DNA of 64,000 nt from Actinomycetes bacterium. Lineage in GTDB: Bacteria > Actinomycetota > Actinomycetes > Actinomycetales > Microbacteriaceae. Both the position numbers and the translations under genes were made by a program. The stretch lies in NCBI GenBank assembly GCA_029777095.1, contig JAKOTS010000057.1, forward strand, positions 1-64,000, written 5' to 3'. Under the pieces are notes generated by a model that was given only the letters and a program-made list of their open reading frames with translations, was not told the DNA's origin and did not search any database. This document shows, one piece after another, positions 11,520 through 37,562 of the stretch (within the stretch, counting starts at the first letter, position 1; each line of letters opens with the position of its first letter).

Positions 11520-11534
11520 TGGTACGTCGTGTGG

Positions 11535-15637: not shown

Positions 15638-15687
15638 CGCTCCTTTGGTGCGTGGCCGACGGAGTTGTCGGCCCGGTAACGCTAGCA

Positions 15688-15706
15688 CTGTTGACTGTTA
15701 ACAATT
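15688..15706 (-). promoter_or_regulatory. GntR operator candidate upstream of tctC
   Basis: AATTGTTAACAGTCAACAG (minus strand), nearly identical to the 16408-16426 site. Confidence 0.75.
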
Positions 15707-15724
15707 AAGAAAGATGCGCGTCTG

Positions 15725-16393: not shown

Positions 16394-16407
16394 GACGTTC
16401 TCCTGCC

Positions 16408-16426
16408 AATTGTTGACAGTCGACAG
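16408..16426 (+). promoter_or_regulatory. GntR operator candidate upstream of gntR
   Basis: AATTGTTGACAGTCGACAG. Confidence 0.75.
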
Positions 16427-16437
16427 ACTACGGTGTG

Positions 16438-17766: not shown

Positions 17767-17778
17767 GACTGAGCCCCG

Positions 17779-19029
17779 CTAGCCCTCGACGGGCAGGCCC
17801 CGGTAGAGCGCCTCGAAGGTGCGCAGCGTGCGGTCGATATCGTGCACCTTCACGCCCTCGAGCGAGCTCTCCTGCAGGCGCAGGCGCTCGGCGGGGTCGG
17901 CCGTGAGCACGGTCGTGAGCTTCGCCGCGAGGTCGTCACGGCTCGTCGGGTCGAAGAGGTAGCCGTTCTCGCCGTCGTGCACGAGGTGCGGCAGGGCCAT
18001 CGCGTCGGCGGCGACGACCGGAAGCCCGGATGCCATCGCCTCCATGGTCGCGATCGACTGCAACTCGGCGATCGAGGGCATCGCGAAGACGCTCGCCCGC
18101 GTGTAGATCGCGCGCAACTCGTCTTCGTCGACGCGGCCGTAGAAGGTCACGCGATCGCTCAGCCCGAGGCTTTTCGCGTGGTGCTCGAGGTTGCGCAGCT
18201 GGTCGCCGCCGCCCACGATGTCGACCTTCACGTTGAGCTTCGGGTCCATCGACTGCACCGCTTCGAGCAGCAAGTCGATCTGCTTCTCGCGGGTGAGGCG
18301 GCCAACAAACAGCACGCGATTCTCGGCGCGCGGAGTGAGGTCTGCCGTGTAATTCGAGGCTCGGATGCCGCAGCTCACCGCGCGCACATCCGTCAAACCC
18401 GTCGCCTGCACAAAGAAGTCGGCGGCGCGCTGGGTCGGGGTCGTGATGGCCTGGGCGAGCACGAACGTGCGCTTCGCCATGTCCCAACCCCACTTCACGA
18501 ACCTGCCCTTGAGGAAGGGCGGCAGCTTGGTGAAGTCAAGGATGTTCTCGGGCATCACGTGGTTGGTACCGACGACACGAATCCCGCGCTTGTGCGCCTC
18601 GTAGGCGAGGCCGCGGCCGATCACGATGTGTGACTGGAAGTGCACCACGTCGGGCTGCACCTCGTCGAGCACCTGCCTGGCATAGAACTTGGAGCGCCAG
18701 GGCCACACGAAACGAAGCCAGTCGTGTGGGGGCCAGCGCAGGGAGGGCAGGCGGTGCACGGTCATCGGTTCGCCCTCGATGATCTCGATGCCCGTGCTGC
18801 GGCGGTATTCCTGTGCCGGCGCCATGATAAATACATGGTGGCCGCGCGCAACCAGTCCGGCGGCGAGCCGTTCGGTGAATCGCGCGGCGCCGTTGACGTC
18901 GGGGTAGAAGGTGTCACCACCGATGACGATGCGCAGGGGCTTGCTGGGGGCCGAGTCTGCGCGGTCGGCGCTCCTCGTCTCAGTTGTCACGGGAGAACTA
19001 CTGCCTATCTCTCTGCGGCGGGACGACAC
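17779..19029 (-). CDS. glycosyltransferase family 4
   Basis: GGDTFYPDVNGAARFTERLAAGLVARGHHVFI; VLFVGRLTREKQIDLLLEA. Confidence 0.9.
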   Translation of the reverse strand: MSSRRREIGSSSPVTTETRSADRADSAPSKPLRIVIGGDTFYPDVNGAARFTERLAAGLVARGHHVFIMAPAQEYRRSTGIEIIEGEPMTVHRLPSLRWPPHDWLRFVWPWRSKFYARQVLDEVQPDVVHFQSHIVIGRGLAYEAHKRGIRVVGTNHVMPENILDFTKLPPFLKGRFVKWGWDMAKRTFVLAQAITTPTQRAADFFVQATGLTDVRAVSCGIRASNYTADLTPRAENRVLFVGRLTREKQIDLLLEAVQSMDPKLNVKVDIVGGGDQLRNLEHHAKSLGLSDRVTFYGRVDEDELRAIYTRASVFAMPSIAELQSIATMEAMASGLPVVAADAMALPHLVHDGENGYLFDPTSRDDLAAKLTTVLTADPAERLRLQESSLEGVKVHDIDRTLRTFEALYRGLPVEG

Positions 19030-19771: not shown

Positions 19772-21412
19772 CTATGCCGGGATGTTCACCGTGCCAACGA
19801 GGTGCACGTGCACGCCCAGGCGCTCGAACATTGCGGCCTTCGCGAGCAGCGCGCGATCGGCGGTTTCGGCGTCCGGCGCGTAGACCAGCTGCGCGTGGTT
19901 GGCCTTGTGGTGCGCCATGAACTGGTCGCGCGTGACATCGTGCAGCACGACGTGGGCGATGGGCCACTCGGGGTTCGTGGCATCCTTGCGTCGCTGCGTC
20001 TCTTCGGCGGGGAGCTCGACGACCGATCCGCGGAGGAGGTCGACGTGCAGCTCGCCACCGGCGATGTAGACGCGGCTCAGGACGATCTCACCGGGCTTCG
20101 ACACACCGTTGAGCGTCGCGCCGCCGGCCGGGAAGAAGACGTGGCCCTGGCGCCAGCCCTCTGCCTTGTCGTAGCCACCGAGGTGCGATGCGGGCACCGA
20201 ACCCGAGATCTCGTAGACCCAGACGAAGTCGCCGCCGAAGTCTTCGCCCCAGCGCACATCGTGCAGCGTGTTGTCGGGCACGAGGCCCATCGCACGCCAG
20301 ACGCGGTCGGTGATGAGCGCGTCGACAGCAACGCCCTCGTCGGCCTCGTTGAAGTGGGGGAACGCGCGACCCTCGTGCAGCACGCGCGAGCCGTCGCGGC
20401 TCGTCACTGGCGGACGCTCGGTGGCGTTGAGCAGGCCTTCGGCGAGATCGGATGCCGGAACCAGGTCCTTCAGGCCCTGCTGGTACTGAATGCCCACCGC
20501 GTCGAGACCGAAGTCGTCAGATATGCGCAGCGCCGCGATGTACATCTTGTACTGCCAGCGCAGCTGCGTGGTGGTCAGCTCGGTCGCCTCGTCGGTGCCG
20601 AGCTTGAAGGTCATGCCGTGGTCGATCAGCCAGGTCCCAACGGCCTCTGCCTCTTCGTCACCCACGGTGAGCATTTCGGCGTAGAGCGCCGACTGCGACA
20701 GGCGCTCCTTGTAGATGCCGAGCTTGTTGAGCAGCTCGTCATCGAAGATCGCGTTGTACATGCCCATGCAGCCCTCATCGAACACGCCGATGATTGCCTT
20801 GTCTGCCAGCATCTCGTCGGCGAGCGCGTAGCCGAGCTCGCGCTCGGGGCTCTCGGCGAGCGCCGGAAGGGGGCGCACGTGCGAGACGTCGTGCGTGATG
20901 CTGCCGGTCTCGATCCACTCGGCGAGCTTGGTCTTGAACCACTCGTCGGTGAAGTCAACGCTCCACAGGGTCGAGTAGGGCTTGTCCATCTTGGTGAGGC
21001 CGGCGTTCAGGCCGAGCAGGCCCACGAGGCCAGGCCACTCGCCCTCGAAGTTGGCGACGGTGAGGATCGGTCCTTCGTGCGTGCGCAGGCCCGCGAGCAC
21101 GTGGTGCGAGTACTGCCAGACGGCCTCGGCAACGATCAGCGGCGCGCCGGTGGGGATCGACTTGAAGACCTCCATGCCCATGCGCTGGCTCGAGATGAAG
21201 CCGTGGCCGGTGGCCGGGTCGATCTCATTTGCGCGGATGACGGTCCAGCCGAGATCGGCGAACGCTGCGGTGACAGCGGCCTCCATGGCCGCCTGGGTCG
21301 GCCACCCCTCGGTATTGGCGGGTTCGCGCAGGTCGCCGCTCGCGATCAAGTACGCGGTTTTTGGCGCGGCAACCGGGCGTTCGCTTCGAACGGGCAGAGT
21401 GTATGTGCTCAT
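19772..21412 (-). CDS. L-fucose/D-arabinose isomerase-like protein
   Basis: 546 aa FucI-like; FDEGCMGMYNAIFDDELLNKLG; overlaps the kinase gene by 4 bp. Confidence 0.75.
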   Translation of the reverse strand: MSTYTLPVRSERPVAAPKTAYLIASGDLREPANTEGWPTQAAMEAAVTAAFADLGWTVIRANEIDPATGHGFISSQRMGMEVFKSIPTGAPLIVAEAVWQYSHHVLAGLRTHEGPILTVANFEGEWPGLVGLLGLNAGLTKMDKPYSTLWSVDFTDEWFKTKLAEWIETGSITHDVSHVRPLPALAESPERELGYALADEMLADKAIIGVFDEGCMGMYNAIFDDELLNKLGIYKERLSQSALYAEMLTVGDEEAEAVGTWLIDHGMTFKLGTDEATELTTTQLRWQYKMYIAALRISDDFGLDAVGIQYQQGLKDLVPASDLAEGLLNATERPPVTSRDGSRVLHEGRAFPHFNEADEGVAVDALITDRVWRAMGLVPDNTLHDVRWGEDFGGDFVWVYEISGSVPASHLGGYDKAEGWRQGHVFFPAGGATLNGVSKPGEIVLSRVYIAGGELHVDLLRGSVVELPAEETQRRKDATNPEWPIAHVVLHDVTRDQFMAHHKANHAQLVYAPDAETADRALLAKAAMFERLGVHVHLVGTVNIPA

Positions 21413-22929
21413 TTCGTGCTTCTTTCTGTGCGTTGCAAGCGAGCGAGCTCGTGGACCACTCGCTTGGTGTTCTCGTAGGTTTCGAGGTACAGCGCGAACA
21501 GCTCGTCATAGGCTGCCGCGACATCGGGGTTCGGTTTGATCGTTTGGGCGACGGGATTCCACTCGCCCATCGTCGGCTCGGTGCCGGGGGCCGCGATCGC
21601 GCACGCGGCGAGGAACGCGACACCGTAGCTCGCGCCGATCGTCGTGCGGGGCACCTCCTGCGTGAGGCCCGTGACGTCGGAGACGACCTGCAACCAGAGC
21701 GCACCCTGGGTGCCACCGCCGACGGCAACGATGCGGCGGATGTCGGCGCCGGCCGCGCGCATGGTCTCGACGTTGTGCCGCACGCCGAAGGCCGTGGCCT
21801 CCAGCGCCGAGCGATAGAGGTCACCGCGGGTGTGACTGAGCGTCAGCCCGGCGATCACGCCGCGGGCGTCCGGGTCGAGGATGGGGGTGCGCTCGCCCGC
21901 GAAATAGGGCAGCGTCAGCAGGCCCCGCGCGCCGGGACCAGATTCTGCGGCCTCGGCCAGCAGCGTCGGGTAGTCGGCGCCCGAAAGGTCTTTCAGCCAC
22001 GCGGTCAGCGCGCCCGAGGTCGAAAGCCCGCCGGCGAGGTTTCGGGTGCCGGGAAAGGCCCCGACCGTCGTCCACATCGAGGGGGTGCGAAGCGTCTCGG
22101 TGCCCGTCGCAACCAAAAACATCGTGGTGCCGTACATGAGCATCAGGTCGCCGAACTCGTGGGCGCCGACGCTGACAGCCTCGCTCCACGCATCGATCGT
22201 TCCGGCAATGACGGGAATGCCCGCGGGCAGACCGGTTGCGGCGGCTGCGGCATCCGTCACCTGACCGGCGATGTCGCCCGCCCAGAGCAGGCGGGGCGCC
22301 TCGATGCCGGGTGCGTAACGCGCCCAGTTGTCGGCATGCCACTCTTCGCGCTCGACGTCGTAGAGGGGCGAGACCTGGCTCGCCGACTGGTGGTCGAGCA
22401 CGTAGGCGCCGGTGAGGTGGCGGGCGAGCCACGAAGCGGGCATGAACAGGCGGCGCGCGGCGGCGTAGGCGGCCGGCTCTTCGTCGGCAATCCACACGAT
22501 CTTGGGCCCACCGGCCTGCGTGGTGAGCGTCGAGCCGCCCACGCGCGTGATCTCGGCCACGCCGAGCTCGTCGGTCATCCGGTCGATCTGGGCGGTCGCT
22601 CGCGTGTCGACGCCATACAGAATGGCCGGGCGCACCGGCTCGTCGGCGTCGTCGGCAAGCAGCACGCAGGGCCCCATGCCGCTGACCCCCACTGCCGCGA
22701 TCTCGACTTCAAGCTGCGAAGCGGATGCCGCGGCCAGCAGCTCGCGCGTCAGCTGCACAAACTCGGCCCACCAGATGCGGCCGTCCATCTCGACCCAGCC
22801 TGTGCGGGGGCGCTGCACGTCGTGTGCGACCGTGGCCGAGGCGAGGATCTCGCCGTGAGCGTCGACAAGGACACCCTTGCTGCTTGATGTGCCGATATCG
22901 ACACCGATGGTGCACCGCGCGGGCATCAT
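21409..22929 (-). CDS. FGGY-family carbohydrate kinase (predicted D-ribulokinase)
   Basis: CTIGVDIGTSSSKGVLVDAHG; IVAVGGGTQGALWLQVVSDVTG. Confidence 0.9.
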   Translation of the reverse strand: MMPARCTIGVDIGTSSSKGVLVDAHGEILASATVAHDVQRPRTGWVEMDGRIWWAEFVQLTRELLAAASASQLEVEIAAVGVSGMGPCVLLADDADEPVRPAILYGVDTRATAQIDRMTDELGVAEITRVGGSTLTTQAGGPKIVWIADEEPAAYAAARRLFMPASWLARHLTGAYVLDHQSASQVSPLYDVEREEWHADNWARYAPGIEAPRLLWAGDIAGQVTDAAAAATGLPAGIPVIAGTIDAWSEAVSVGAHEFGDLMLMYGTTMFLVATGTETLRTPSMWTTVGAFPGTRNLAGGLSTSGALTAWLKDLSGADYPTLLAEAAESGPGARGLLTLPYFAGERTPILDPDARGVIAGLTLSHTRGDLYRSALEATAFGVRHNVETMRAAGADIRRIVAVGGGTQGALWLQVVSDVTGLTQEVPRTTIGASYGVAFLAACAIAAPGTEPTMGEWNPVAQTIKPNPDVAAAYDELFALYLETYENTKRVVHELARLQRTERSTK

Positions 22930-22974
22930 GTTCTCCTCGTGAAACGTGCGGGCGCGTGCTGCGCTCACACCTAG

Positions 22975-22988
22975 TGAAATCGATTTCA
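22975..22988. promoter_or_regulatory. LacI operator 1 (kinase-isomerase promoter)
   Basis: TGAAATCGATTTCA, perfect 14-bp palindrome. Confidence 0.85.
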
Positions 22989-23077
22989 AGTTTAGTTGTA
23001 GAAGTGGTCAGTAGGGCGACGGACAAGGGCGACGAACTGGGGCGCGCGAGGCAGGCTGCGTGCTCACCCGCGCGGGG

Positions 23078-24085
23078 CTACCCGCCCGCTGGCACCGCAG
23101 GTGCATCGCACCCACGGGCTGGTTGCAGTTCGCTGCGCAACACCACCGTGCGTGCGGGTTGCTGGTCGCCATCGATGCGCTCGAGCAGCATCTTTGCCGC
23201 GGTGACGCCCATGTGGCGGGCGGGCAGCCGCACCACGGTCACGGCACTCGGCGAGAGCGTTGTGAACGGGAGCGAGCCCACCACCGCCACCCCGAACTTG
23301 GGCGGCGTCAGCCCGCGCTCGGTGAGCACCTGAATCGCCCCCACGCCGAGCAGATTGTTTGCCGCGACGACCGCGTCGGGCGGCTCGGGCATCGACAGCA
23401 GCTCTTCCATTTTGGCGCGGCCGCCATCAACCCGAAACGTCGAAAAGCGCAGGTAGGGTTCTGGGTCGAAGTCGGGCAGGCGCGCGGCAAGCACGGCCCG
23501 CCATCCCTCGGCGCGCTCCTGCGCGGTCTCGATCGGCTCGGGCCCCGTGATGCACGCGATGCGGGTGAACCCCGCCTGCACGAGGTTCTCGGTGGCGGCC
23601 TGTCCGGCCGCGCGGTTCTCCATCACAACGCCGTCGATGTCGTAGCCGGCGCCGCGATCGACGGCCACAATCGGTCGCCCCGTGGCGATCAGATCGTCGA
23701 GATTCGTGTGATCGGATGCCGGTGCCAAAATCACGCCCGCCATCCGCTCCGAGATCGCGATCTTCAGGTAGTTCGCTTCCTTCTCGATCTGCGAATCCGA
23801 GTTGCAGATCACGAGCGAGTAGCCGGCCGCTGAGGCGACGTCTTCGACGCCCCTGGCCATCTCGGTGAAGTAGGGGTTTTCAATGTCGGGGAGCACGAGC
23901 GCGATGACCTCGGAGGCCTGCCTGCGGAGGCTCCGCGCGTTGCGATTGGGCGTGAAGCGCAACTGCTGTGCAGCGTCGCGCACCGCGAGCGTCTTCTGTT
24001 CTGACACCCCCATGCCGTTGAACACGCGTGACACCGTCGCCGGAGACACCCCCGCGAGCTTCGCAACCTCATAGATCGTGACCAT
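23078..24085 (-). CDS. LacI-family transcriptional regulator
   Basis: VTIYEVAKLAGVSPATVSRVFNGMGVSEQKTLAVRDAAQQLRFTPNRNARSLR. Confidence 0.95.
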   Translation of the reverse strand: MVTIYEVAKLAGVSPATVSRVFNGMGVSEQKTLAVRDAAQQLRFTPNRNARSLRRQASEVIALVLPDIENPYFTEMARGVEDVASAAGYSLVICNSDSQIEKEANYLKIAISERMAGVILAPASDHTNLDDLIATGRPIVAVDRGAGYDIDGVVMENRAAGQAATENLVQAGFTRIACITGPEPIETAQERAEGWRAVLAARLPDFDPEPYLRFSTFRVDGGRAKMEELLSMPEPPDAVVAANNLLGVGAIQVLTERGLTPPKFGVAVVGSLPFTTLSPSAVTVVRLPARHMGVTAAKMLLERIDGDQQPARTVVLRSELQPARGCDAPAVPAGG

Positions 24086-24119
24086 GTATCGCCCCCTCCC
24101 CTGCGTGTGATTCGTTGTC

Positions 24120-24133
24120 TGAAATCGATTGCA
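24120..24133. promoter_or_regulatory. LacI operator 2 (upstream of lacI)
   Basis: TGAAATCGATTGCA. Confidence 0.85.
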
Positions 24134-24164
24134 TCACACTCGCTAAATGCGTCAAAATCCGGCG

Positions 24165-26765
24165 TCAGCTCATCGGTCGTCCCCCCTTGACCTCGCCGCT
24201 CGCGCCCCCGCCGGCCGCAAAGACCGGAGCGGCGGCTGGCGCCCCTGCAGAAAGCACCACCCGCCCCAGCTCGCCATCCCCAAATCGAATCACCGTGGCA
24301 TCGAGCACCCCGGCCGCGCAGCTCACCCGTACTCGCCCCCCGAGCACGTCGACGGTGCCGTGCCCGGTCGATGACACCCACGGCCAGCGACCGTCGCGGG
24401 CGAGGTGCATCTCGCCGCTCAGCTCGTCGATTCGCACGCCGGTGCGTGCCTGCAAGACCGTCCACCCCGCCATCGCCCGCGAGTAGTGGTCGCCGCATTC
24501 GATCTCGTTGTACGGGTTGCGGCGCCGGCCATCGTGCCGTGTCCAGAGCGCATCGAGCACGGCGTCGGCTTCGGCATCCAATCCCTCCCACAGGCAGTGC
24601 GCCGCCACCTGATATTCGATGCCGCTCCACACCTCGTCTGCATACCGCGTCGGCACCGCCGGGCGCCCACCCGATGGCCACGAACACATCAACAGGCCCG
24701 AATCATCGGCGGCATCGGCGTAGACCCGGTACGGGTGCTCGAAGTTCTCGAAGCCGTGTTTGAGGTTGGTGGCGACCACGTGGGCAAGCGCGGTGCGCAC
24801 GTGGTCTGCGGGCAGGATGTGCCCGAGACCGAGTTGGTGCGCCCACCACTGGCCGATCAGCTGGTCGCTCAAGGTCCCCGTCAACCACTGGAAATCAGAC
24901 GGGTCGTCGGGGTCGAGCTTTTGCACATAGTGGGTGCCGTCAAAGAGCAGCTCGTCATAGAGGCGCGAGCCCGACTCGAACCGTTCGCGCACCTCGGCCG
25001 CGACCTCGGCGTCGCCCGCCACCGCGGCCAGCTCTTCCATCGCACGAAGCGCCGCGAGCCACAGCGTGCCCATGAACGTGTTCACACCGGCGAGATCGAT
25101 GTCGTGCGTGCTGGGTTGGATGCCTCGCAGCACGCCATCCCCATCGGCATCCCATTTCTCGGCAATATGCCGATACAGCGTGACCAGCCGCGGCCAGCGC
25201 GCCTTCACCCAGGCGTCCCCGGCGCCGTGTTGCGCGTCGCGGAGCGACTTGAGGATCGTGGCAAGCATGCCGTCGAGCGCGGGTTCTTCGGGACCGCCGA
25301 TCATTTCGTCCCACATTTGCCGCAGATAGACGGGCACGCGCAGGCGATGCGGGATCGCGCCGTTCGGCGCCTGCATCACGTCAAATTCGGTGTCGCGCAT
25401 GTTGCGCTCAAGCGAGGGCCAAAGGGCGGCGAGCGCAGCCTCGTACTGCCACACGTGGGTGCAGTTGAGCGGGCACGAGCCACCGAACGCGCCCGACCAC
25501 ATCGTGGTCGATGCCCCGAGCGACCCCTCATACCCATAGAAGCGGCCGTCCGCGCCCATGAAACACGTGGGGCTGCGCACAAGCGAGGCCTGCGCCGCCA
25601 TCCGGTCGACGGTGCGTTCGTCAAGATCCGAGTCGATGAGCGTGCGGGTCCACGCGAGCGTGTCTTGCACGAGCGAGTCCCAGTTCTCGGCCACCTGCTG
25701 CTGCACATCGAGGGCGTCGAGATAGCGGCCGGCGTAGGAGTTGCCGACGAAGAAGCGTGAACCGCCCCACTCGGGGTGCGGTTGGCCGAACTGCTCGATG
25801 TCGACAAAGCGGTTGGAGAAGTGCCACGACATGCTGAACCGAATCACCCGGGTTTGCCCGGGCTCAAGCCAGAACGGCACGCCCACGACACCCAGCCACG
25901 AGCGGCCCGGCGCGCTCGGCCCCGACGCCGAGCGCGGTCCGTTCAGCTGCGGGTCGGCGATCATCGGCGCCTGCTCGAGCTTCGCCCGACCGTTGTTGAG
26001 CGCGCGCGATTCGAGGAACGAGACGAGGTGTTCGACGCCCGCGCACCGCGGCACGACCGCCGCATATTCATCGTCGGCCGCGAGCACCATCTGCCCGGCA
26101 AACTGGTCGCTCTCGGCGAGGCTCGGGTTGTCCATCACCACGCGGGTCCACCCCTTGCCGCGCACCAGGCGGTTGACGTTGCCGCCGAGCCCGGGGGTCG
26201 TCTCGGCAATGGGGGTGACGCCGTCCCAGCCGATCGCGTTCAACAGTGACCCGGCGAGCGTGCCGTGCACCTCGACGGGGCCGTCGTTGGTGAGGGTGAA
26301 TTCAAACAGGGCGGCGGGGATGCTGCTGGTATCGACATCGCCCGGAACCATGGGGTTGAGCACCCGCATGCTCGCGCGCAGCGGCACCCGATCGTCGCCG
26401 TACTCGACCTCGGCGACCGGGTAGGTGGCGCTGAATCGAGCCTCGGCCATGGTGCCGACGCGATCGGCGGCCCGAAGCATCCACTCGGGCACTTCGCCGT
26501 CGGTCACGAGCGGCGCCGCGGGATCGGGCACCGGGGTGCCCTGCAGCATTGTGACCACCTGCACCGGCGGCTCGACCCGAGAGAGCCGGAGCCAGAAGCC
26601 AGTGCCGGGCAGGGCGCCGCGGTGATTTGGCATGCCGCTGAGTTGCCATTGGCGAAGCGAGCCATCGGCGTTGACGGCGAACCCTCCGGTACCGATGCCC
26701 CCGACCGGCATTGCCAGTGCGGGTGCGTCGGTGTGCGGGATCCGTTGACCAAGAACCTGACTCAT
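24165..26765 (-). CDS. glycoside hydrolase family 116-like protein (candidate exo-D-arabinofuranosidase), no signal peptide
   Basis: AMPVGGIGTGGFAVNADGSLRQWQLSG; GSCPLNCTHVWQYEAALAALWPSLERNMRDTEF; GIQPSTHDIDLAGVNTFMGTLWLAALRAMEELA; start MSQVLGQ. Confidence 0.88.
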   Translation of the reverse strand: MSQVLGQRIPHTDAPALAMPVGGIGTGGFAVNADGSLRQWQLSGMPNHRGALPGTGFWLRLSRVEPPVQVVTMLQGTPVPDPAAPLVTDGEVPEWMLRAADRVGTMAEARFSATYPVAEVEYGDDRVPLRASMRVLNPMVPGDVDTSSIPAALFEFTLTNDGPVEVHGTLAGSLLNAIGWDGVTPIAETTPGLGGNVNRLVRGKGWTRVVMDNPSLAESDQFAGQMVLAADDEYAAVVPRCAGVEHLVSFLESRALNNGRAKLEQAPMIADPQLNGPRSASGPSAPGRSWLGVVGVPFWLEPGQTRVIRFSMSWHFSNRFVDIEQFGQPHPEWGGSRFFVGNSYAGRYLDALDVQQQVAENWDSLVQDTLAWTRTLIDSDLDERTVDRMAAQASLVRSPTCFMGADGRFYGYEGSLGASTTMWSGAFGGSCPLNCTHVWQYEAALAALWPSLERNMRDTEFDVMQAPNGAIPHRLRVPVYLRQMWDEMIGGPEEPALDGMLATILKSLRDAQHGAGDAWVKARWPRLVTLYRHIAEKWDADGDGVLRGIQPSTHDIDLAGVNTFMGTLWLAALRAMEELAAVAGDAEVAAEVRERFESGSRLYDELLFDGTHYVQKLDPDDPSDFQWLTGTLSDQLIGQWWAHQLGLGHILPADHVRTALAHVVATNLKHGFENFEHPYRVYADAADDSGLLMCSWPSGGRPAVPTRYADEVWSGIEYQVAAHCLWEGLDAEADAVLDALWTRHDGRRRNPYNEIECGDHYSRAMAGWTVLQARTGVRIDELSGEMHLARDGRWPWVSSTGHGTVDVLGGRVRVSCAAGVLDATVIRFGDGELGRVVLSAGAPAAAPVFAAGGGASGEVKGGRPMS

Positions 26766-26769
26766 GTTG

Positions 26770-27573
26770 CTACTCCTTCGTGGAGGACTGCGTGGAGGGC
26801 GTGGAGGGCTTTGAGGGCTTCGTGGGCTTCGTGGCGAACTTCGCGTCAAACGTCGTGGTGGTTCTCGTGAACAGCGGGGCGAGCGCCGGCAGCGACACCC
26901 CGGCGCGAACCACGGTGGGCCACGCGGCGCCGACGGCGAGCGCGGCCAGCAGGCCGGGGGCGAGGGCGGTGAGCCCCGGCAGCCCAGACATCCCGACCCA
27001 CGCGAGCGCACAGCCAACGATTGCGGTCGCGATGGCCGGGAGCGGAAACCGCAGCACCGAATAGCAGGCGACCAGCACGATCGCGCGCAGCGAGCTCTCG
27101 GGGCGGGCGTCCGCGAGCGGCAACGCCACGATCGCCACCAGCGCGAACACCACGGTTGCGAGCGAACCGGCGGTCGCGGCAATCGCGAACAACGTCGCCC
27201 CCGATTGCGCTGCGGCAAATGCCGCGACCAGGCTCAGTGCCGCGGCGAGCCCGCACGGCAGCACGATCGCCTCGGCCCGCAGCGCCCGGCGCCACCAGGC
27301 CGGGCGCGGGCCGGTGCGCTCGAACACCTCCGAGTGCAGGCGCTCGACGCAGGCAAGCAGCAGCGGGGCGCCAAACAGGCAGACGGCGAGCGCGACGACC
27401 GGGCTGTCGGCACCGAAAATCGCGCCGGCGATGAGGGTGGGCACCAAGAGGGCGCATCCGCTCGCCAACAACACCGGAAGACTTCGCCAGAACGCCATCG
27501 GCATCCGCCGCAAAACCGGGTCGGCCTGGCGCGAGGCGGCTGACTGCCCACCGAGCCCTTCGGCCGCGCTCAT
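26770..27573 (-). CDS. integral membrane protein of the glycan locus (YesL-like placement)
   Basis: Overlaps the permease stop (ATGA); several TM segments; low-complexity TKPSKPSTPSTQSSTKE tail. Confidence 0.7.
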   Translation of the reverse strand: MSAAEGLGGQSAASRQADPVLRRMPMAFWRSLPVLLASGCALLVPTLIAGAIFGADSPVVALAVCLFGAPLLLACVERLHSEVFERTGPRPAWWRRALRAEAIVLPCGLAAALSLVAAFAAAQSGATLFAIAATAGSLATVVFALVAIVALPLADARPESSLRAIVLVACYSVLRFPLPAIATAIVGCALAWVGMSGLPGLTALAPGLLAALAVGAAWPTVVRAGVSLPALAPLFTRTTTTFDAKFATKPTKPSKPSTPSTQSSTKE

Positions 27574-28469
27574 CCTTTCAGCCCCGATGACGCAACGCTC
27601 GCCACAAACTGGCGCTGGAAGATCAGGAACACGATCAGCAACGGGGCGACCACCATCGTGATGGCGGCGAAGACGACCGTCGCGGGCGCCGCACCGAACC
27701 CCTGCTGCAACACGACAAGGCCCAGGGGCAGCGTCATGTTCTCTGGGCTTGAGAGGAAGATCAACGGTCCGAAATATCCGTTCCAGGATGCCTCGAAGCT
27801 CAGGATCGCGAGCGCCGAGAGTGCGGGGCCCGACAGTGGCAGCAGCATCCGGAACAAGATCCATGCGTGCCCGGCGCCGTCGATCTTCGCGGCCTCGTCG
27901 AGCTCGCGTGGGATCGTCCTGAAGTACTGCGTGAGGAAGAAGATCTGGAAGACGTTCACGAGGGCGGGCAACCACAGCGCGGCGAGCGTGTCGACCAGAC
28001 CGAGCTGGCGCATCATGATGAAAATCGGGATGATCACGAGCTGCGCCGGCACCATCATGGCCGAGAGCATGACCACAAGGAGCGCGCCGCTGCCCCGGAA
28101 CGAAACGCGGGCGAACCCATAGGCCGCGAGCACCGAGAAGGTCAGCGACCCGACCGTGATGATCACCGCGAGAAAGAGCGAGTTCATGAACTGCTGCATG
28201 AATGGCACGTACTCGAACACGTTGACGAAGTTGTCAACCGTGAACGGCACGGGCAACCACTTTGGGGGTTCGGTAAACGCCTCCGCGCCCACCGTGAAGC
28301 TCGTCGAGATGAGCCAGTACAGCGGGGCAAGCATCAGCACGCCGAACACGATCAGCACGATGCTGAGCACGACGTCGCCCCAGTGCAGGCGTCGCGTGTG
28401 CGTGCGCGCGTTCACGCGCCCGAGCAGGTCTGGTTGGAGGCCGGTGCGAACACCGGGTGCAATGCTCAT
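27570..28469 (-). CDS. carbohydrate ABC transporter permease (CUT1, MalG-like)
   Basis: EAAKIDGAGHAWILFRMLLPLSGPALSALAILSFEASWN (EAA loop). Confidence 0.93.
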   Translation of the reverse strand: MSIAPGVRTGLQPDLLGRVNARTHTRRLHWGDVVLSIVLIVFGVLMLAPLYWLISTSFTVGAEAFTEPPKWLPVPFTVDNFVNVFEYVPFMQQFMNSLFLAVIITVGSLTFSVLAAYGFARVSFRGSGALLVVMLSAMMVPAQLVIIPIFIMMRQLGLVDTLAALWLPALVNVFQIFFLTQYFRTIPRELDEAAKIDGAGHAWILFRMLLPLSGPALSALAILSFEASWNGYFGPLIFLSSPENMTLPLGLVVLQQGFGAAPATVVFAAITMVVAPLLIVFLIFQRQFVASVASSGLKG

Positions 28470-29365
28470 GCTTCAAACACCCACTTCTTGCGCCCCCAGA
28501 ATTGCAGGAGCGTCACGCCCATCACGATGAGGAATACCAGGATGGCCACGGCCGCCGCGTACCCCATTTGGAACGACTGGAAGCCCTTTTCGTAGAGGTA
28601 CATCACGATGGTCGTGGTCGAGTTTTGCGGCCCGCCCTTTGTAATGATCTGGATCGGTTCGAACACCTGGAACGCGCCGATGAACGTGATGATCATGGCG
28701 AAGAACATGGTGGGCGACATCAGCGGGAGCGTGACCTTCCAGAACACCTGCCACGAGTTCGCGCCGTCAGTGCGGGCCGCTTCGATGAGCTCGGGCGAGA
28801 CCGTTTGCAGCCCGGCGAGCATGATGATGAAGGTGAAGCCCAGCGTGTGCCAGAGGTCGATGAAGATAATCGCCGGGAGCGCCCATGACGGATCGGTGAA
28901 GAAGTTGGGGGTGTCGATGCCGATCATCGCCGCGTATTGCGAGACGAACCCGAACGTGGGGTCAAGCACGTACTTCCACAGCAGCGACACTGCCGCCCAC
29001 GAGATGAGGAACGGGAAGAACACGGCGACCCGCAAGAAATAGCTCAGGTATCGGTTGACCACCCGGTTCACGGCAATTGCCAGGAGCAGTCCCAAGACGA
29101 TGTGCGTCACGATCGACGCGAACGCGAAGACGAACGTGTTCGCGAGCACGCGCGGCAGGATCGGATCGGTGAACAGCTTGACGAAGTTGTCGAGCCCGAT
29201 GAACACCGGGTCGGTGAGCAGATCCCACTTGAAGAGGGCGAGCCCAATGGCGAAGACGAACGGGCCCGCGATGAAGATCAGGAACAGCAGGGTGGCGGGG
29301 CTGACGAACAGCCAGCCCGCCACCTCGGTGCGACGCCGCTGGCGCACTGCGCCAGGACGTCGCAC
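28466..29365 (-). CDS. carbohydrate ABC transporter permease (CUT1, MalF-like); start uncertain (29365 or 29440)
   Basis: EAARTDGANSWQVFWKVTLPLMSPTMFFAMIITFIGAFQVF; overlaps the downstream permease by 4 bp. Confidence 0.9.
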   Translation of the reverse strand: MRRPGAVRQRRRTEVAGWLFVSPATLLFLIFIAGPFVFAIGLALFKWDLLTDPVFIGLDNFVKLFTDPILPRVLANTFVFAFASIVTHIVLGLLLAIAVNRVVNRYLSYFLRVAVFFPFLISWAAVSLLWKYVLDPTFGFVSQYAAMIGIDTPNFFTDPSWALPAIIFIDLWHTLGFTFIIMLAGLQTVSPELIEAARTDGANSWQVFWKVTLPLMSPTMFFAMIITFIGAFQVFEPIQIITKGGPQNSTTTIVMYLYEKGFQSFQMGYAAAVAILVFLIVMGVTLLQFWGRKKWVFEA

Positions 29366-29375
29366 CGATGCTGAA

Positions 29376-30698
29376 CTACTTGTTAGCGACAAGGCTCTCC
29401 AGCTTTGTCTGGGCCGCGTCGAGGGTGGCCTTCGCGTCACCCTGACCGGAGATAATCGTCAGCCACGCCTCTTCGATGACCTTCTGCGCCTCGGCGCCAC
29501 GGTCAATCGACGGGATCGGCGTTGCGTAGCTCATCGCTTCGCTCAGGCGGATACTGCCCTCGGGCGCGTTGTCGGTGAAGGCACTCGACTTCGCCACCGA
29601 TTCGCGTGCGGGCACGATGGTGCCACCGATGGTGGCGAAGTACTCACCGGCATCCTTCGACATCAAGAACTTGATGAAGGTCCAGGCGGCCTCCTGGTTC
29701 TTGCTGTTCTTCGCGATGTTCCAGGCATCCCAACCCACTGGCGACCCGTTCGTCGTCTTGGTGGGCCAGTTGACGACCACCGTGTCGGCGACCATGTCGA
29801 GATTACGGATGCTGAGGACCGGCCAACGACCACCGTTGAGGCTTGCGAGCTTGCCCTGCTTGTAGGCTGCCTCGGCGTCAAACTGCCCGCCCGGTTCGGG
29901 TGAGAGCCCCTCGGCGACGAGCTGGCGTGCCATCTCGGCCGATTGGATCGCGGCGGGGCTGTTGTACGTCGGCTTTGTCCAGTCCGCGTTGAAGGTGCTC
30001 GCACCGTTCGTGGTCAGCCACGGCATTGCATCACCGAAGTAGCTCGACCCAGCGGCCTGAATGTAGGCGCCGGTCTTGTCTTTGATCGCGTGGCCGGCCG
30101 CGAGATATTCGTCCCACGTCCAGTTGCCATCAGCCGGGATCGTGACCCCCGCGGCGTCGAAGACCGACTTGTTGAGGTACATGCCCATGGTGTTGAACCC
30201 GCCCGGAATGAAGAGCGTTTCACCATTGGGGCCCGACGCAAACTCCTCGTTGAACTGCTTCAACTTGGGGTTGATGTCGGCCCAGTAGTCATCGACGACT
30301 GCCTTGTCTTGTTCGATGAACGGGCCGAGGTCGGCGAGCACACCCTTTGACGCGAAGAGGCGCTGCCCCTCGGTTGCCACCTGGATGATGTCGATGACCT
30401 GCCCACCGGCGAGCCGCGTGGCGACGGTGTTCGAGAAGTCGGCCCAGTTGCCGGCTGGGATGCCCTGGGCCTTGAGCTTGATGTCGGGGTACTGCTTGTT
30501 GAACTCTGCAAAGAGCGCGTTGAACGCCTTCTGCTGGTTGGCGTCACCGAGGTAAACGAAGGTCAGCTCGCCACTATCGGGACTCCCCGACGGGCTGCTG
30601 CCTCCACCACCTCCGCCGCCTGAACACCCGGCAATCAACACACTTGTCGTGGCGATGGCAAGCACTGCAAGTGCTGTTCTGCCTCTTCTGAAACGCAT
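29376..30698 (-). CDS. extracellular sugar-binding lipoprotein of the CUT1 ABC transporter
   Basis: Lipobox VLIAGCSGGGGGG; FNKQYPDIKLKAQGIPAGNWADFSNTVATRLAGGQVIDI; start MRFRRGRTAL. Confidence 0.92.
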   Translation of the reverse strand: MRFRRGRTALAVLAIATTSVLIAGCSGGGGGGGSSPSGSPDSGELTFVYLGDANQQKAFNALFAEFNKQYPDIKLKAQGIPAGNWADFSNTVATRLAGGQVIDIIQVATEGQRLFASKGVLADLGPFIEQDKAVVDDYWADINPKLKQFNEEFASGPNGETLFIPGGFNTMGMYLNKSVFDAAGVTIPADGNWTWDEYLAAGHAIKDKTGAYIQAAGSSYFGDAMPWLTTNGASTFNADWTKPTYNSPAAIQSAEMARQLVAEGLSPEPGGQFDAEAAYKQGKLASLNGGRWPVLSIRNLDMVADTVVVNWPTKTTNGSPVGWDAWNIAKNSKNQEAAWTFIKFLMSKDAGEYFATIGGTIVPARESVAKSSAFTDNAPEGSIRLSEAMSYATPIPSIDRGAEAQKVIEEAWLTIISGQGDAKATLDAAQTKLESLVANK

Positions 30699-30817
30699 CG
30701 CATCCTCCTCAGACTTGAGACTCGTCGGTGAGTCACCACGGAAGGGGAGCATTGGCATCGATTCTCCGGTGCTCGTAAACGTGGCGGGTCGGATGACCTC
30801 TCACGCAGGAGGCTAGG

Positions 30818-30831
30818 AGAAATCGATTTCA
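30818..30831. promoter_or_regulatory. LacI operator 3 (upstream of the sugar-binding protein gene)
   Basis: AGAAATCGATTTCA. Confidence 0.82.
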
Positions 30832-30977
30832 TCCACAAGGGCCTGAGCGAGCGCTCGCACTTGCCCACTCGAGCGCGATTGCATGGATTGTTACGGGGAA
30901 TCGAAAACCCACGCGATTTTCCGGGGCTGTCGCCCGGCAGGGCCGTTGACAGCCCGGGAGTGTGTCACTAGATTGAC

Positions 30978-30999
30978 TGAAATCGATTGCACAATCGAT
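30978..30999. promoter_or_regulatory. LacI operator 4 (upstream of the DUF2961 gene), composite site
   Basis: TGAAATCGATTGCA overlapping ATCGATTG-CA-CAATCGAT. Confidence 0.85.
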
Positions 31000-31038
31000 G
31001 GACGCGTCATGCCAGAACACGAGGAAGTGCCTGTCAAG

Positions 31039-32187
31039 ATGAATACACAATCGCCGCTCAATTCCGGCCTTTCGAGCCCCGGACTTTCGAGCATCGCTGG
31101 CCTGCGGCCGCTGCGCACGAGATCGATCTCGCCAGAAAACTTCGACGGCAGCGTCGGCGGCGGCGCACGCGCCACCGAGGGCACCGGCGCAGCGTGCGCC
31201 GTCGACCTCGGACCGGGCTGGAAGATCTCACCGAGCGTCGACATCAAGGCCGGCGACACTTTCGACCTCGCGAACATTTCGGGCGCCGGCAAGATCACCC
31301 ACATCTGGATCACGACACACACCGACAACTGGCGCACCCTCATCCTCCGCGCCTACTGGGACGGCGCCGACGAGCCCGCGGTCGAGGTGCCCTACGGCGA
31401 CTTCTTCTGCAACGGCTGGGGCGTGTTCGCGCAGGTCACTTCGCAGGTGATCGCCGCGAACCCGCACGGCGGGTTCAACTCGTACTGGCCGATGCCGTTT
31501 CGCACCGGCGCGCGCCTCACCGTCGAGAACACCTCGGTCGTCGACGTACGCGTGTACTACCAAATCACGTACGAAGAGGGCGGCAACTACGAGAACGACG
31601 GCTACTTCCACGCCCAGTGGCGCCGCTCGAACCCGCTCGACGAGGCAACACCCCACGTCCTCGTGGAGGGCGTCGAAGGGCAGGGCCACTACGTCGGCAC
31701 CTACATCGCGTGGGGGGTCAACTCCAACGGGTGGTGGGGCGAGGGCGAGGTGAAGTTCTACCTCGATGACGACGTCGAGCACCCGACAATCTGCGGCACC
31801 GGCACCGAGGATTACTTCGGTGGGGCCTGGAACTTCGATGTGCCTGGTGAGGGCTACACCGCGTTCTCGACGCCATATTTGGGGATGCCGCAGGTGATCC
31901 GGCCCGATGGGCTCTACGTCAGCCAGCAGCGATTCGGGCTCTACAGGTGGCACCTGCCCGACCCGATCTTCTTCTCGAAGCGGCTCGCGAAGGTCGATGT
32001 GCAGGCGCTCGGTTGGAAGAGCGGATGGCGCTACCTGCCGCTGCGCGACGACATCGCCTCGACCGCCCTGTTCTACCTCGACCGGCCCACCGCCCGTCGA
32101 CCGAAGTCGCCCTCGGCCGACGACATGGAGGTACACCTAGGCACAAGCGCGGTGCCCGACCTCGGTGCGACACCGCCGCGGTCATAG
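31039..32187 (+). CDS. DUF2961/GH172-family glycoside hydrolase (candidate exo-alpha-D-arabinofuranosidase), no signal peptide
   Basis: RTRSISPENFDGSVGGG; EVPYGDFFCNGWG; GTGTEDYFGGAWNF; GLYRWHLPDPIFF. Confidence 0.92.
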   Translation: MNTQSPLNSGLSSPGLSSIAGLRPLRTRSISPENFDGSVGGGARATEGTGAACAVDLGPGWKISPSVDIKAGDTFDLANISGAGKITHIWITTHTDNWRTLILRAYWDGADEPAVEVPYGDFFCNGWGVFAQVTSQVIAANPHGGFNSYWPMPFRTGARLTVENTSVVDVRVYYQITYEEGGNYENDGYFHAQWRRSNPLDEATPHVLVEGVEGQGHYVGTYIAWGVNSNGWWGEGEVKFYLDDDVEHPTICGTGTEDYFGGAWNFDVPGEGYTAFSTPYLGMPQVIRPDGLYVSQQRFGLYRWHLPDPIFFSKRLAKVDVQALGWKSGWRYLPLRDDIASTALFYLDRPTARRPKSPSADDMEVHLGTSAVPDLGATPPRS

Positions 32188-32199
32188 CGGGGCTGGTCT

Positions 32200-33363
32200 T
32201 CAGCCCGACACCTTGTCGAGATGCACTGAGAACCAGAACACGTTGTACGGGCCCCACTGCGAGAGATCGAAGTAGACCGTGCGCCCGTCGTCGCTCACAT
32301 AGCGCGGGTTCATGTAGGGCGCGTACAGGCCCGGATATTCGGTGCCCGACACAATCTCGAGCGGGTCGCCCCACGGCCCCCACGGGGTGAGCCCTTCGCG
32401 CATGTACGCCGAGCCGCCATCCGAGTACGTCATCAGCCAGCGCTCGAGGTAGTTCGAATACATCACCGACATCTCGCCGATCGTGCCATCGAGCACGATC
32501 GCGGCGTCGTCCATCTGCGCGCTCCACTTGGGTGAACCCGAGGCATCGGTGCCGGTGAAATAGCTGTAGGCACCGGCATCCTCAACCGCGTCCGTCGTCG
32601 CAGGCACGCGCATGAGCGCGACGCCGCCAAATCGGCCGGCAGGAATCGCCCAGATGTAGACGTAGTCGGTGCCGCCTTCGCGCACCTGCACCGTCGCGAA
32701 CTGAATGAAGTTTGAGTCGCCCGGCCAGCGAACGCCCTCGACCTGGGTCCAGGTTTGGCCCTGGTCGATTGACTTTGCAAGGCCGCTGTAACCGGCATCC
32801 CACATGCCCGCATCGCCCCAGTGCGAGACCGACATGTAGGCCAGGTACATCGCGTCGCCGATCGCGAACGCGTGCGTGGGAATCTTGGTGACCTCGCCGC
32901 TGCCATCGCCCGGCCCGTGATCGCCCTCGACCAGTGCCGCCGCGAGCCCGATCGCATCTTCGGCCCACCCGCCAAAGGTGATGCCGTCGCTCGGGTCGTC
33001 GTCGGTGCTCCACGCCATCACGTTCGAGCGCCACATGCCGCCCTCGCCGCCATAGGCATCCGGGTCGCGCAGTCCGAACGTATCGCCAAAGAAGAAGTAG
33101 GTGCGATCGTCGACCGTCAGCATCGAGCCGAGGTCGGTACCGGCAACGCCCACCGCCTCGGTGTCGTTGATTGCCCCCGGGCCGGTGAGCTGGGCGATTT
33201 CTTTCAACCCGCTCACGCCCGAGAGCACAAAGGGGCGATCCGCGTCGGGGCTGACGTCGACCCGGCCGCCGCCAGCGCCCCCGGCGCTACACGCGCCGAG
33301 CAGCAACGCGAGCGCGGTGGCCGCGCCGATGGTCACAAGCAACTGCGATGCTCGAGTGCGCAT
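32200..33363 (-). CDS. DUF4185/GH183-family secreted lipoprotein (candidate endo-D-arabinanase)
   Basis: Lipobox LLLGACSAG; TYFFFGDTFGLRDPDAYGGEGGMWRSNVMAWSTDDDPSDGITF; LYAPYMNPRYVSDDGRTVYFDLSQWGPYNVFW. Confidence 0.88.
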   Translation of the reverse strand: MRTRASQLLVTIGAATALALLLGACSAGGAGGGRVDVSPDADRPFVLSGVSGLKEIAQLTGPGAINDTEAVGVAGTDLGSMLTVDDRTYFFFGDTFGLRDPDAYGGEGGMWRSNVMAWSTDDDPSDGITFGGWAEDAIGLAAALVEGDHGPGDGSGEVTKIPTHAFAIGDAMYLAYMSVSHWGDAGMWDAGYSGLAKSIDQGQTWTQVEGVRWPGDSNFIQFATVQVREGGTDYVYIWAIPAGRFGGVALMRVPATTDAVEDAGAYSYFTGTDASGSPKWSAQMDDAAIVLDGTIGEMSVMYSNYLERWLMTYSDGGSAYMREGLTPWGPWGDPLEIVSGTEYPGLYAPYMNPRYVSDDGRTVYFDLSQWGPYNVFWFSVHLDKVSG

Positions 33364-33396: not shown

Positions 33397-33410
33397 CGGC
33401 ATCGATTTCA
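33397..33410. promoter_or_regulatory. LacI half-degenerate operator 5 (upstream of the DUF4185 gene)
   Basis: CGGCATCGATTTCA; one intact half (ATCGATTTCA). Confidence 0.6.
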
Positions 33411-33472: not shown

Positions 33473-33934
33473 TTAGCGCTGGTCGTCTTCGCCGGCTTGC
33501 GGATGCATCGACCCCGGCCGCCACAGCACCACATCGGTCTGCCGGCGAAGCCGGGTTCCGGCCCGCAGCGTCACGACAGAGCCGGTTGCGGCGGCGGCGA
33601 ACACGCGCCCACCTGGGCGCTGCTCGCGCTCGGCGGCGAGGAGCCCTTCGAGCTCAGCCACCCGGCGGTGCAACGAATGCACCTGTTCTTCGAGCAGCAA
33701 CACCCGCGAGATTGCGGGCAGGCTCATGCCGTCCGCCGACAGGCGTGCCACCTCGCGCAGCTGCTCGATGTTGCGGGTCGAGTAGCGCCGCGAACCACCG
33801 CGAGTACGACCGGGAACCACAAGGCCCAACCGGTCGTACTGTCGCAGTGTTTGCGGGTGCATTCCCGCAAGCTCGGCCGCAATCGCGATCGCAAACAGCG
33901 GGACATCCTCATCGATCGAGGCATCCATCGTCAT
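33473..33934 (-). CDS. hspR: MerR-type heat shock repressor HspR
   Basis: FAIAIAAELAGMHPQTLRQYDRLGLVVPGRTRGGSRRYSTRNIEQLREVARLSADGMSLPAI; last gene after dnaK-grpE-dnaJ. Confidence 0.93.
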   Translation of the reverse strand: MTMDASIDEDVPLFAIAIAAELAGMHPQTLRQYDRLGLVVPGRTRGGSRRYSTRNIEQLREVARLSADGMSLPAISRVLLLEEQVHSLHRRVAELEGLLAAEREQRPGGRVFAAAATGSVVTLRAGTRLRRQTDVVLWRPGSMHPQAGEDDQR

Positions 33935-33966
33935 TCACCTCACTCATTAGACCGAACATGCGGCGC

Positions 33967-34953
33967 CTAGCCTCTTGCCTTCGCCATCAGTTCGTCACGC
34001 GGGTTCTCACCCGGTTCGACCTCGCGGTACTTCTCGAGCGCCTCGCGCGCGGCGTCGTCAAGGTGTGCCGGAACGGCAACCTGCACGACGGCGAGCAAAT
34101 CGCCCGTGCCCTTCGTGCTCGTGATGCCGCGGCCTTTGACACGCAGCACCCGACCACTCGGGGTTCCCGGCGCGACCCGCAATTTCACGGGGTCACCGCC
34201 GAGGGTCGGCACCTCAATGGTGGCGCCGAGGGCTGCCTCCACGAAGGTGACGGGAACGGTCACGCGAAGGTTGAGACCATCGCGTTCGAAGACCGGGTGC
34301 TTGCGCACCTTCACCTGCACGACGATGTCGCCGTTTTCGCCGCCGTCCGGTGAGGGACGACCGCGGCCGCGGAGGCGGATCTTCTGCCCGTCGGCAACGC
34401 CGGCGGGAATCTTGACCTTGAATGGCCGACCGTCTTCGCCCTGCAGCGAGATCGTCTCGCCACGCGCCGCCGTCACGAAATCGAGCGTGGTGCGTGCCGT
34501 GACGTCTTGACCCTTGGTGGGGCCGCCAAAGCCGCGGTATCCGCCGCTCGTCTGACCAAAACCACCACCCTGCTGGCCAAAGAGGCCACCAAAGAGGTCT
34601 TCGTAACTCTGCCCGGAGGCCTGCGGGCGGCCGCGGCCGCCACCCTGCTGGCCGAACCTGCTGAACACGTCATCGAAGCCCTGGTTGCTCTGGCCACCCG
34701 CGGTGAAGCGGGCGCCAGAGCCCATGGCGCGAATCTGGTCGTATTCGGCGCGCTGTTCGGCGTCAGAGAGCACCGAGTACGCCTCGCTGATCTCTTTAAA
34801 CTTGGCCTCGGCGGCGGCATCACCCTGATTTGAGTCGGGGTGATATTTGCGGGCGAGCTTCCGATAGGTCTTTTTCAGCTCGGCAGCGTCGACCGTCTTG
34901 GCCACACCCAGCGTCTTGTAGAAGTCCTTATCGAACCAATCCTGACTCGCCAT
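33967..34953 (-). CDS. dnaJ: DnaJ-family co-chaperone (DnaJ1/CbpA type without zinc finger)
   Basis: DFYKTLGVAKTVDAAELKKTYRKLARKYHPDSNQGD; G/F-rich linker; no CxxCxGxG repeats. Confidence 0.92.
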   Translation of the reverse strand: MASQDWFDKDFYKTLGVAKTVDAAELKKTYRKLARKYHPDSNQGDAAAEAKFKEISEAYSVLSDAEQRAEYDQIRAMGSGARFTAGGQSNQGFDDVFSRFGQQGGGRGRPQASGQSYEDLFGGLFGQQGGGFGQTSGGYRGFGGPTKGQDVTARTTLDFVTAARGETISLQGEDGRPFKVKIPAGVADGQKIRLRGRGRPSPDGGENGDIVVQVKVRKHPVFERDGLNLRVTVPVTFVEAALGATIEVPTLGGDPVKLRVAPGTPSGRVLRVKGRGITSTKGTGDLLAVVQVAVPAHLDDAAREALEKYREVEPGENPRDELMAKARG

Positions 34954-34960
34954 ATCGCCT

Positions 34961-35602
34961 CTATTCCGCCGGAACCGCGACGACGACCTTTGCGGGTCGA
35001 AGCTCTACGGAACCCAGCATGTAGCCGATTTCGACGACCTCGAGGATCGTTGGCTCGGTCGCACCCGGGGTGGGAGCCTGGAAGATTGCTTCGTGGCGTT
35101 GCGGGTCGAACAGCTCGCCCGCCTCACCGTACGATTCGAGGCCCATTTTCTCGGCAACGAAACGAATCTTCTCGGCGATGGTCGCGAAGGCGCTCCCAGG
35201 TTCGAGGTCACCGTGCTTTTCTGCCCGGTCGAGGTCATCGAGCGCGGGCAGCAGGCTGCGTGCAGCCTCGCCCTTCGCGCGCTCGATCTCGACCAGCCGC
35301 TGCTCTTCGGTGCGCCGACGGTAGTTGGCGTACTCGGCGGTCAGCCGCTGCAGATCAGCAAGGTGCTCGGCGGCCGCCCCCGCAAGCTGCGGGTTGTGTT
35401 CGGCGAGCGCCTCGTCTTCAACGCCGTGAGCGGATGCCTCAGCCGTCTGCTCTGCGTTCAAAATGTCGTCAATCGTGAGGTCACCATCGAAGTCCGACCC
35501 GCGCGGGCCGGGGCCGGAGGCGTGTGCCTCCGACCCCTGCGTCGCTCCGGGCTGAACCTCGTCGTGACCCTCGGGGCCCTGATCGGGGTTCTTGTCCGTC
35601 AT
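34961..35602 (-). CDS. grpE: nucleotide exchange factor GrpE
   Basis: LTAEYANYRRRTEEQRLVEIERAKGEAARSLLPALDDLDRA; GYMLGSVELRPAKVVVA. Confidence 0.93.
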   Translation of the reverse strand: MTDKNPDQGPEGHDEVQPGATQGSEAHASGPGPRGSDFDGDLTIDDILNAEQTAEASAHGVEDEALAEHNPQLAGAAAEHLADLQRLTAEYANYRRRTEEQRLVEIERAKGEAARSLLPALDDLDRAEKHGDLEPGSAFATIAEKIRFVAEKMGLESYGEAGELFDPQRHEAIFQAPTPGATEPTILEVVEIGYMLGSVELRPAKVVVAVPAE

Positions 35603-35604
35603 GA

Positions 35605-37461: not shown

Positions 37462-37534
37462 ATGTGTCTCTCTCTTTCGTGTCGCGCGGGGTGCCGCGCG
37501 GCGTTGGGGTTGATCTGAAATTCTTGGGGCTGGA

Positions 37535-37555
37535 CTTGAGTCCAACAGGCTCAAT
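37535..37555. promoter_or_regulatory. HAIR-like site 1 upstream of dnaK
   Basis: CTTGAGT-N7-GCTCAAT. Confidence 0.8.
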
Positions 37556-37562
37556 GTTACAG

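Follow-up and report, generated by a model that had tools for sequence, protein, structure and literature searches.

Is the ten-gene cluster at positions 19772-33363 of a Microbacterium contig a locus for feeding on D-arabinan, and how few proteins would such a pathway need? D-arabinan is an unusual sugar polymer of the wall of mycobacteria. The cluster lies in contig JAKOTS010000057.1 (assembly GCA_029777095.1), of which positions 1 to 64,000, called the window here, were analysed. All ten genes are in clean reading frames with a high G+C content at third codon positions. Read from the isomerase end, the (-) strand carries the genes for an isomerase, an FGGY kinase, a LacI regulator, a GH116 protein, a membrane protein, two permeases and a binding lipoprotein; a GH172 gene follows on the (+) strand, and the gene of a GH183 lipoprotein on the (-) strand. 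From the permeases through the membrane protein to GH116, neighbouring genes either overlap or directly adjoin. GH183, GH172, GH116, an ATP-binding cassette (ABC) importer, an isomerase and a kinase are thus found together in one cluster, the combination that marks a Gram-positive D-arabinan polysaccharide utilisation locus (PUL). Judged from sequence comparison, the probability that this is a D-arabinan utilisation locus is about 0.85. The locus genes other than that of the membrane protein score above the Pfam cut-off, and the genes named in an initial annotation were all found, as reading frames, where it had placed them. That annotation is very likely right on content and function.

We infer the enzymatic activities, the LacI binding, the inducer and the natural prey polymer of the following route. 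The surface GH183 lipoprotein would cut the D-arabinan of mycobacterial-type arabinogalactan (AG) or lipoarabinomannan (LAM). The CUT1 importer, with its binding lipoprotein and two permeases, would take in the D-arabino-oligosaccharides; its ATPase would be a shared one, probably UgpC/MsmK-like and encoded elsewhere in the genome. A UgpC-like ATPase gene is present on contig C85, away from the locus. In the cytosol, GH116 would take off terminal beta-linked D-arabinofuranose (D-Araf), and GH172 would take off alpha-D-Araf. The FucI-fold isomerase would turn D-arabinose into D-ribulose, and the FGGY kinase would yield D-ribulose 5-phosphate. A LacI repressor with the operator TGAAATCGATTNCA would switch five transcription units together. 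GH183 has a lipobox (LGAC, residue 22), as does the solute-binding protein (SBP; IAGC), while a signal or membrane segment is absent from GH172 and GH116; this agrees with endo-cleavage at the surface and exo-cleavage in the cytosol. The initial annotation had laid out this same succession of endo-cleavage, import, exo-cleavage, isomerisation and phosphorylation; it is supported, and agrees with the pathway proposed in PMC10509167. Feeding on mycolic-acid bacteria, which the annotation also suggested, is a presumed use of the route.

Loci of this kind have been published before, one of them from this very genus, and the window is a compact new case. In M. arabinogalactanolyticum, the D-arabinan PUL MIAR_33170-33320 holds four GH183 genes, ExoMA1 (GH172), ExoMA2 (GH116), an ABC importer and a putative isomerase and kinase. 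Its hydrolase and SBP genes are induced both by D-arabinose and by an extract of mycobacterial walls, and its enzymes have been characterised; the same paper points to clusters of this sort in further Actinobacteria (Shimokawa et al. 2023; PMC10509167). The window shares the six functions, and its GH172 is close to ExoMA1; however, it has one GH183, of the clade adjacent to the SBP gene, a GH116 of the other clade, a non-orthologous importer and another gene order. Here, type A denotes the published importer and GH116 type (ExoMA2 clusters), and type B the type of the window. Four proteins of the window, namely the isomerase, the kinase, LacI and GH172, mostly share 73-86% identity with their counterparts in ExoMA2-type clusters of named Microbacterium species. 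D-arabinan enzymes and a PUL have also been reported from Dysgonomonas gadei (Al-Jourani et al. 2023; PMC10115798), which by description likewise uses GH172 and DUF4185/GH183 for D-arabinan, but belongs to the Bacteroidota. New in comparison with the published systems are the swap of the GH116 clade, the swap of the importer, the single GH183 of a clade left uncharacterised in that paper, and the predicted operator. A second small Microbacterium genome (G297) keeps the gene order at 68-93% identity, its GH183 being 77% identical to that of the window; therefore, the cluster is not a product of chance.

Checked with profile hidden Markov models, as the initial annotation had proposed, the three hydrolases fall over the Pfam cut-off into DUF4185, DUF2961 and Glyco_hydr_116N/DUF608, respectively; an NCBIfam search returned no specific model name for them. 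The DUF4185 match of the endo-enzyme reaches 278.9 bits against a cut-off of 39.5 (E 6.5e-83), and it scores 170.7 bits to EndoMA1. In EndoMA1, Asp33, Asp51 and Glu243 were each proved essential by mutation (PMC10509167). By alignment, the window GH183 keeps all three of these acids, along with Arg198, Trp138, Leu292 and Tyr293, and has Ala in place of Pro141. In the tree, it falls with the SBP-adjacent genes of Microbacterium clusters and outside the EndoMA1 clade. The clade would be that of MIAR_33320, a match made by synteny and position and without the MIAR_33320 sequence; this is the protein that the authors could not obtain in soluble form (PMC10509167). In eight genomes (G000, G297, G229, G345, G346, G257, G078 and G001), the sole full-length GH183 belongs to the SBP-adjacent clade, the extra matches in some of them being partial, at around 41 bits. 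If those single-GH183 loci are functional, this clade must therefore be an endo-D-arabinanase.

The GH172 (DUF2961, E 3.6e-86) is close to a characterised enzyme. It scores 781.9 bits to ExoMA1 (8ic8) over 368 residues, against 121.8 bits to alphaFFase1, the difructose-dianhydride enzyme/fructofuranosidase. It was reported that Asn at position 253 of ExoMA1 gives D-Araf specificity and blocks fructose, the fructofuranosidase having Gly299 (PMC10509167). In pairwise alignment, the window protein has this Asn253, within an identical AWNF motif, as well as Glu223 and Glu245. The initial annotation had named clades with other activities as what would overturn its view; for the hydrolases this did not occur: GH172 is nearest to ExoMA1 with the Asn kept, GH116 carries His and Arg as ExoMA2 does, and GH183 retains its three essential acids.

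Similarly, the GH116 (Glyco_hydr_116N 7.9e-43; DUF608 1.1e-36) has ExoMA2 as its nearest solved structure, with 322 bits against about 81 to TxGH116 and the beta-glucosidases. In a 24-sequence alignment, it retains the ExoMA2 nucleophile Glu431, the acid/base Asp557, His446 and Arg483. The last two distinguish ExoMA2 from the beta-glucosidase TxGH116, which has Asp452 and His507 (PMC10509167); by these residues, the window protein is of the ExoMA2 and not of the beta-glucosidase type. An apparent loss of the nucleophile, where phmmer had put Ser opposite, was rejected, as the 24-sequence alignment gives Glu in a YEG/FEG/WEG motif. When 369 genomes of the genus were searched, 10 had a GH116 of the window type (71-100% identity) and 65 a distant one (up to 41%), and none of these 75 had both. 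In its 10 genomes, type B replaces the ExoMA2 type, and we infer that both would fill the same role.

The importer, too, is of a different type. The type-B importer is not orthologous to the published one, as in type-A clusters the permeases are about 30% identical and the SBP about 24% or undetected. The type-B SBP is 54-57% identical to those of Jiangella, Flexivirga and Microlunatus, of which the latter two share the importer only. Type-B GH116 and type-B importer are paired in six genomes (G297, G229, G345, G346, G257 and G004), and in two others (G098 and G210), type-B GH116 is paired with a type-A importer. Thus, the GH116 and importer modules swap independently, while the core and the operator stay constant.

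Among the 80 GH172 loci compared, Jiangella anatolica (L050) and a metagenome-assembled genome labelled Mycobacterium sp. CP_BE_BS_38 (L037) carry GH116 of the same clade at 53-55% identity. L050 also shares the importer type (SBP 54%, permeases 67-70%), the GH116 (53%) and the GH183 clade (65%). Unlike the window, it has an additional GH183, of EndoMA1 type, as well as a further ABC importer, and both loci are from other genera. The L050 cluster (2502-17681) comprises the type-B importer, GH116, GH172, LacI, the two GH183 of differing clades and the second ABC importer. In L037 (10001-13710), GH172 is followed directly by the type-B GH116. An isomerase or kinase match was absent from the searched stretch of either locus. 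As the Mycobacterium wall would contain D-arabinan, recycling of own-wall D-arabinan is possible for L037, as is a mis-binned contig.

The predicted operator TGAAATCGATTNCA is palindromic and is found upstream of five transcription units. In the window, 9 strand-hits were observed against 0.5 expected in shuffled sequence. LacI proteins whose genes adjoin GH172 in Microbacterium, Sanguibacter, Agromyces and further genera are 60-85% identical to that of the window. Of the 32 loci whose LacI is at least 48% identical, 31 have the operator, with no more than one mismatch, upstream of GH172, against 1 of 47 others and 45 of 5041 background windows, though these counts are not independent, many loci being from closely related Microbacterium. 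The pattern of operator and LacI is common to Streptomyces, Actinotalea, Sanguibacter, Promicromonospora, Agromyces, Planctomonas and Pseudonocardia. LacI binding to this motif is a prediction, and the proposed co-regulation rests on the predicted shared operator. Neither operator nor LacI regulator is mentioned in the text of PMC10509167. The regulon seems, from its predicted sites, to be confined to this locus. Three other one-mismatch sites in the genome were rejected as extra members: one is inside a pdhB-like gene (C91), one inside a methyltransferase-like frame (C25) and one where a different LacI gene begins (C109). The motif is a handle for finding such loci in other genomes.

The isomerase is distant from its solved relatives, being about 16% identical to FucI and 3a9r. 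A single-sequence phmmer search against PDB gave zero matches, and NCBIfam has no specific model for it. With a profile of 19 relatives, the best PDB match was 3a9r, the Bacillus pallidus D-arabinose isomerase (E 8.4e-9); the FucI-like protein of the initial annotation thus has a D-arabinose isomerase as its nearest solved relative by profile. Its AlphaFold2 (AF2) model (pLDDT 89.9) was matched by Foldseek with probability 1.00 to FucI (E 4.9e-20) and 3a9r (2.9e-19), then to AraA. It has the FucI fold, though the whole-chain TM-score is about 0.5 with a large root-mean-square deviation, and the domains may be placed differently. The likeness lies in the fold and in the C-terminal region, where His506, invariant across the 19 relatives, aligns to a His of 3a9r; the assignment of the Glu/Asp ligands is uncertain. 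Isomerases of the window type form a branch of their own, whose place next to GH172 is conserved in Actinomycetota. A search of the literature for the kinase and isomerase of Actinobacteria turned up nothing of use. In seven Streptomyces loci (L040, L046, L047, L048, L051, L055 and L064), the isomerase stands beside GH172 in another arrangement, without a GH116 match; the kinase is present except in L064, and a CUT1-type importer in all. Judging by these loci, a different system that releases D-arabinose may draw on the catabolic core as well. In the type-B cluster of G257 (L142, 5831-7322), the alignment of the kinase gene breaks into two pieces with differing reading frames, which may be a frameshift or a sequencing error.

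Several points weigh against the assignment of the locus to D-arabinan use. No characterised member of the window's GH183 clade was identified among the sequences compared, and where M. arabinogalactanolyticum has four GH183 genes, there is a single endo-enzyme here. The kinase falls below every specific NCBIfam cut-off (XylB 305.5 against 380; L-ribulokinase 135.6 against 583); it is assigned to the FGGY family at large, D-ribulokinase being a prediction. The GH116 is about 33% identical to ExoMA2 and has a 9-residue insertion right after the nucleophile, and the two GH116 types form separate, deep clades (support 100/100) in a tree that left out the published subfamily 1-3 sequences, ExoMA2 being of subfamily 4. 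Such divergence would suit a beta-glucosidase or another beta-glycosidase, with which the pathway could not finish beta-capped arabinan. This is unlikely, as the His446 and Arg483 pair is kept, the score to ExoMA2 is far above that to TxGH116, and the type-B enzyme is part of the regulon and takes the place of the ExoMA2 type across whole genomes.

The single GH183 of the genome would also agree with a locus that serves another source of D-Araf, be it pilin or lipopolysaccharide (LPS) glycans or the leftovers of other degraders, the surface enzyme doing nothing more than trimming; D-Araf is indeed known beyond mycobacteria, from P. aeruginosa pili and some LPS (PMC10115798). Nevertheless, a GH116 beta-D-arabinofuranosidase suits the beta-linked non-reducing ends of AG and LAM, and the PUL of M. 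arabinogalactanolyticum is switched on by an extract of mycobacterial walls (PMC10509167), which makes such a source improbable. Mycobacteria have genes for GH183 enzymes whose presumed substrate is the wall of the bacterium itself (PMC10115798), so that remodelling of the organism's own arabinan was also considered. This was rejected, its likelihood being close to nil: the genome gave zero matches to the Arabinose_trans/Emb arabinosyltransferases, which were detected in the control, Corynebacterium glutamicum, and therefore the organism should make no arabinan of its own. Besides, the locus includes an importer, an isomerase and a kinase.

The locus is thus best read as a minimal version of the pathway for eating mycobacterial wall arabinan, with one endo-enzyme, two exo-enzymes and one importer. 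We lean towards a combined proposal in which the SBP-adjacent GH183 is the sole endo-D-arabinanase of minimal loci and the second GH116 clade consists of exo-beta-D-arabinofuranosidases displacing the ExoMA2 type, both functional and under a LacI with an Actinomycetota-wide operator. The minimal locus makes the functions of both clades directly testable, and such enzymes are tools for dissecting mycobacterial AG and LAM.

Table. Features of the locus in the window, with the basis of each assignment.
Feature	Positions	Strand	Basis or remark
FucI-fold isomerase, predicted D-arabinose isomerase	19772..21412	-	Fucose_iso_C E 2.4e-9; profile match 3a9r; AF2/Foldseek
FGGY kinase, predicted D-ribulokinase	21409..22929	-	FGGY_N/C Pfam
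Predicted LacI operator, perfect palindrome TGAAATCGATTTCA	22975..22988		upstream of kinase-isomerase
LacI-family regulator of the locus	23078..24085	-	LacI plus Peripla_BP Pfam; LacI homologues beside GH172; operator co-occurrence
Predicted LacI operator TGAAATCGATTGCA	24120..24133		upstream of LacI
GH116, predicted cytosolic exo-beta-D-arabinofuranosidase, minority clade (type B)	24165..26765	-	Pfam, residues, tree; start taken from genus-genome search
Membrane protein, 267 aa, six hydrophobic segments	26770..27573	-	reading frame and conservation in relatives
ABC permease (MalG/UgpE type), type B	27570..28469	-	BPD_transp_1 E 2.4e-15
ABC permease (MalF/UgpA type), type B	28466..29440	-	BPD_transp_1 E 2.3e-21; real start probably downstream of 29440
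CUT1 solute-binding lipoprotein, type B	29376..30698	-	SBP_bac_1 E 5.1e-33; lipobox IAGC
Predicted LacI operator AGAAATCGATTTCA	30818..30831		upstream of SBP gene
Predicted LacI operator TGAAATCGATTGCA	30978..30991		ends 47 bp ahead of GH172 start
GH172 (DUF2961), predicted cytosolic exo-alpha-D-arabinofuranosidase, ExoMA1 type	31039..32187	+	match to 8ic8 ExoMA1, residues, no signal segment
GH183 (DUF4185) lipoprotein, predicted surface endo-D-arabinanase, SBP-adjacent (MIAR_33320-like) clade	32200..33363	-	Pfam, lipobox, conserved residues, tree
Weak predicted operator, 2 mismatches	33397..33410		upstream of GH183

The membrane protein had zero Pfam family matches. It is kept between PermG and GH116 in G297, G277 and G004. 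A 203-aa open reading frame at 26846-27457 was rejected as this protein, being in the wrong frame.

The source genome, of the genus Microbacterium, measures 2.43 Mb in 132 contigs and is 96.8% complete; it is small against the genus sample, which is mostly 3-4.5 Mb. Genome-wide, DUF4185, DUF2961 and DUF608 have one match each, all within the locus. Among the surrounding genes, TctA, TctB and TctC of a tripartite tricarboxylate transporter lie at 12401-15688 of the window, with a GntR/FCD regulator adjoining at 15725-16393. Past the isomerase gene, at 16438-19029, are two neighbouring GT4-type glycosyltransferases, near which an operator match is absent. On the GH183 side, the locus is flanked by dnaK-grpE-dnaJ and a MerR-type regulator, probably hspR, at 33473-37572.

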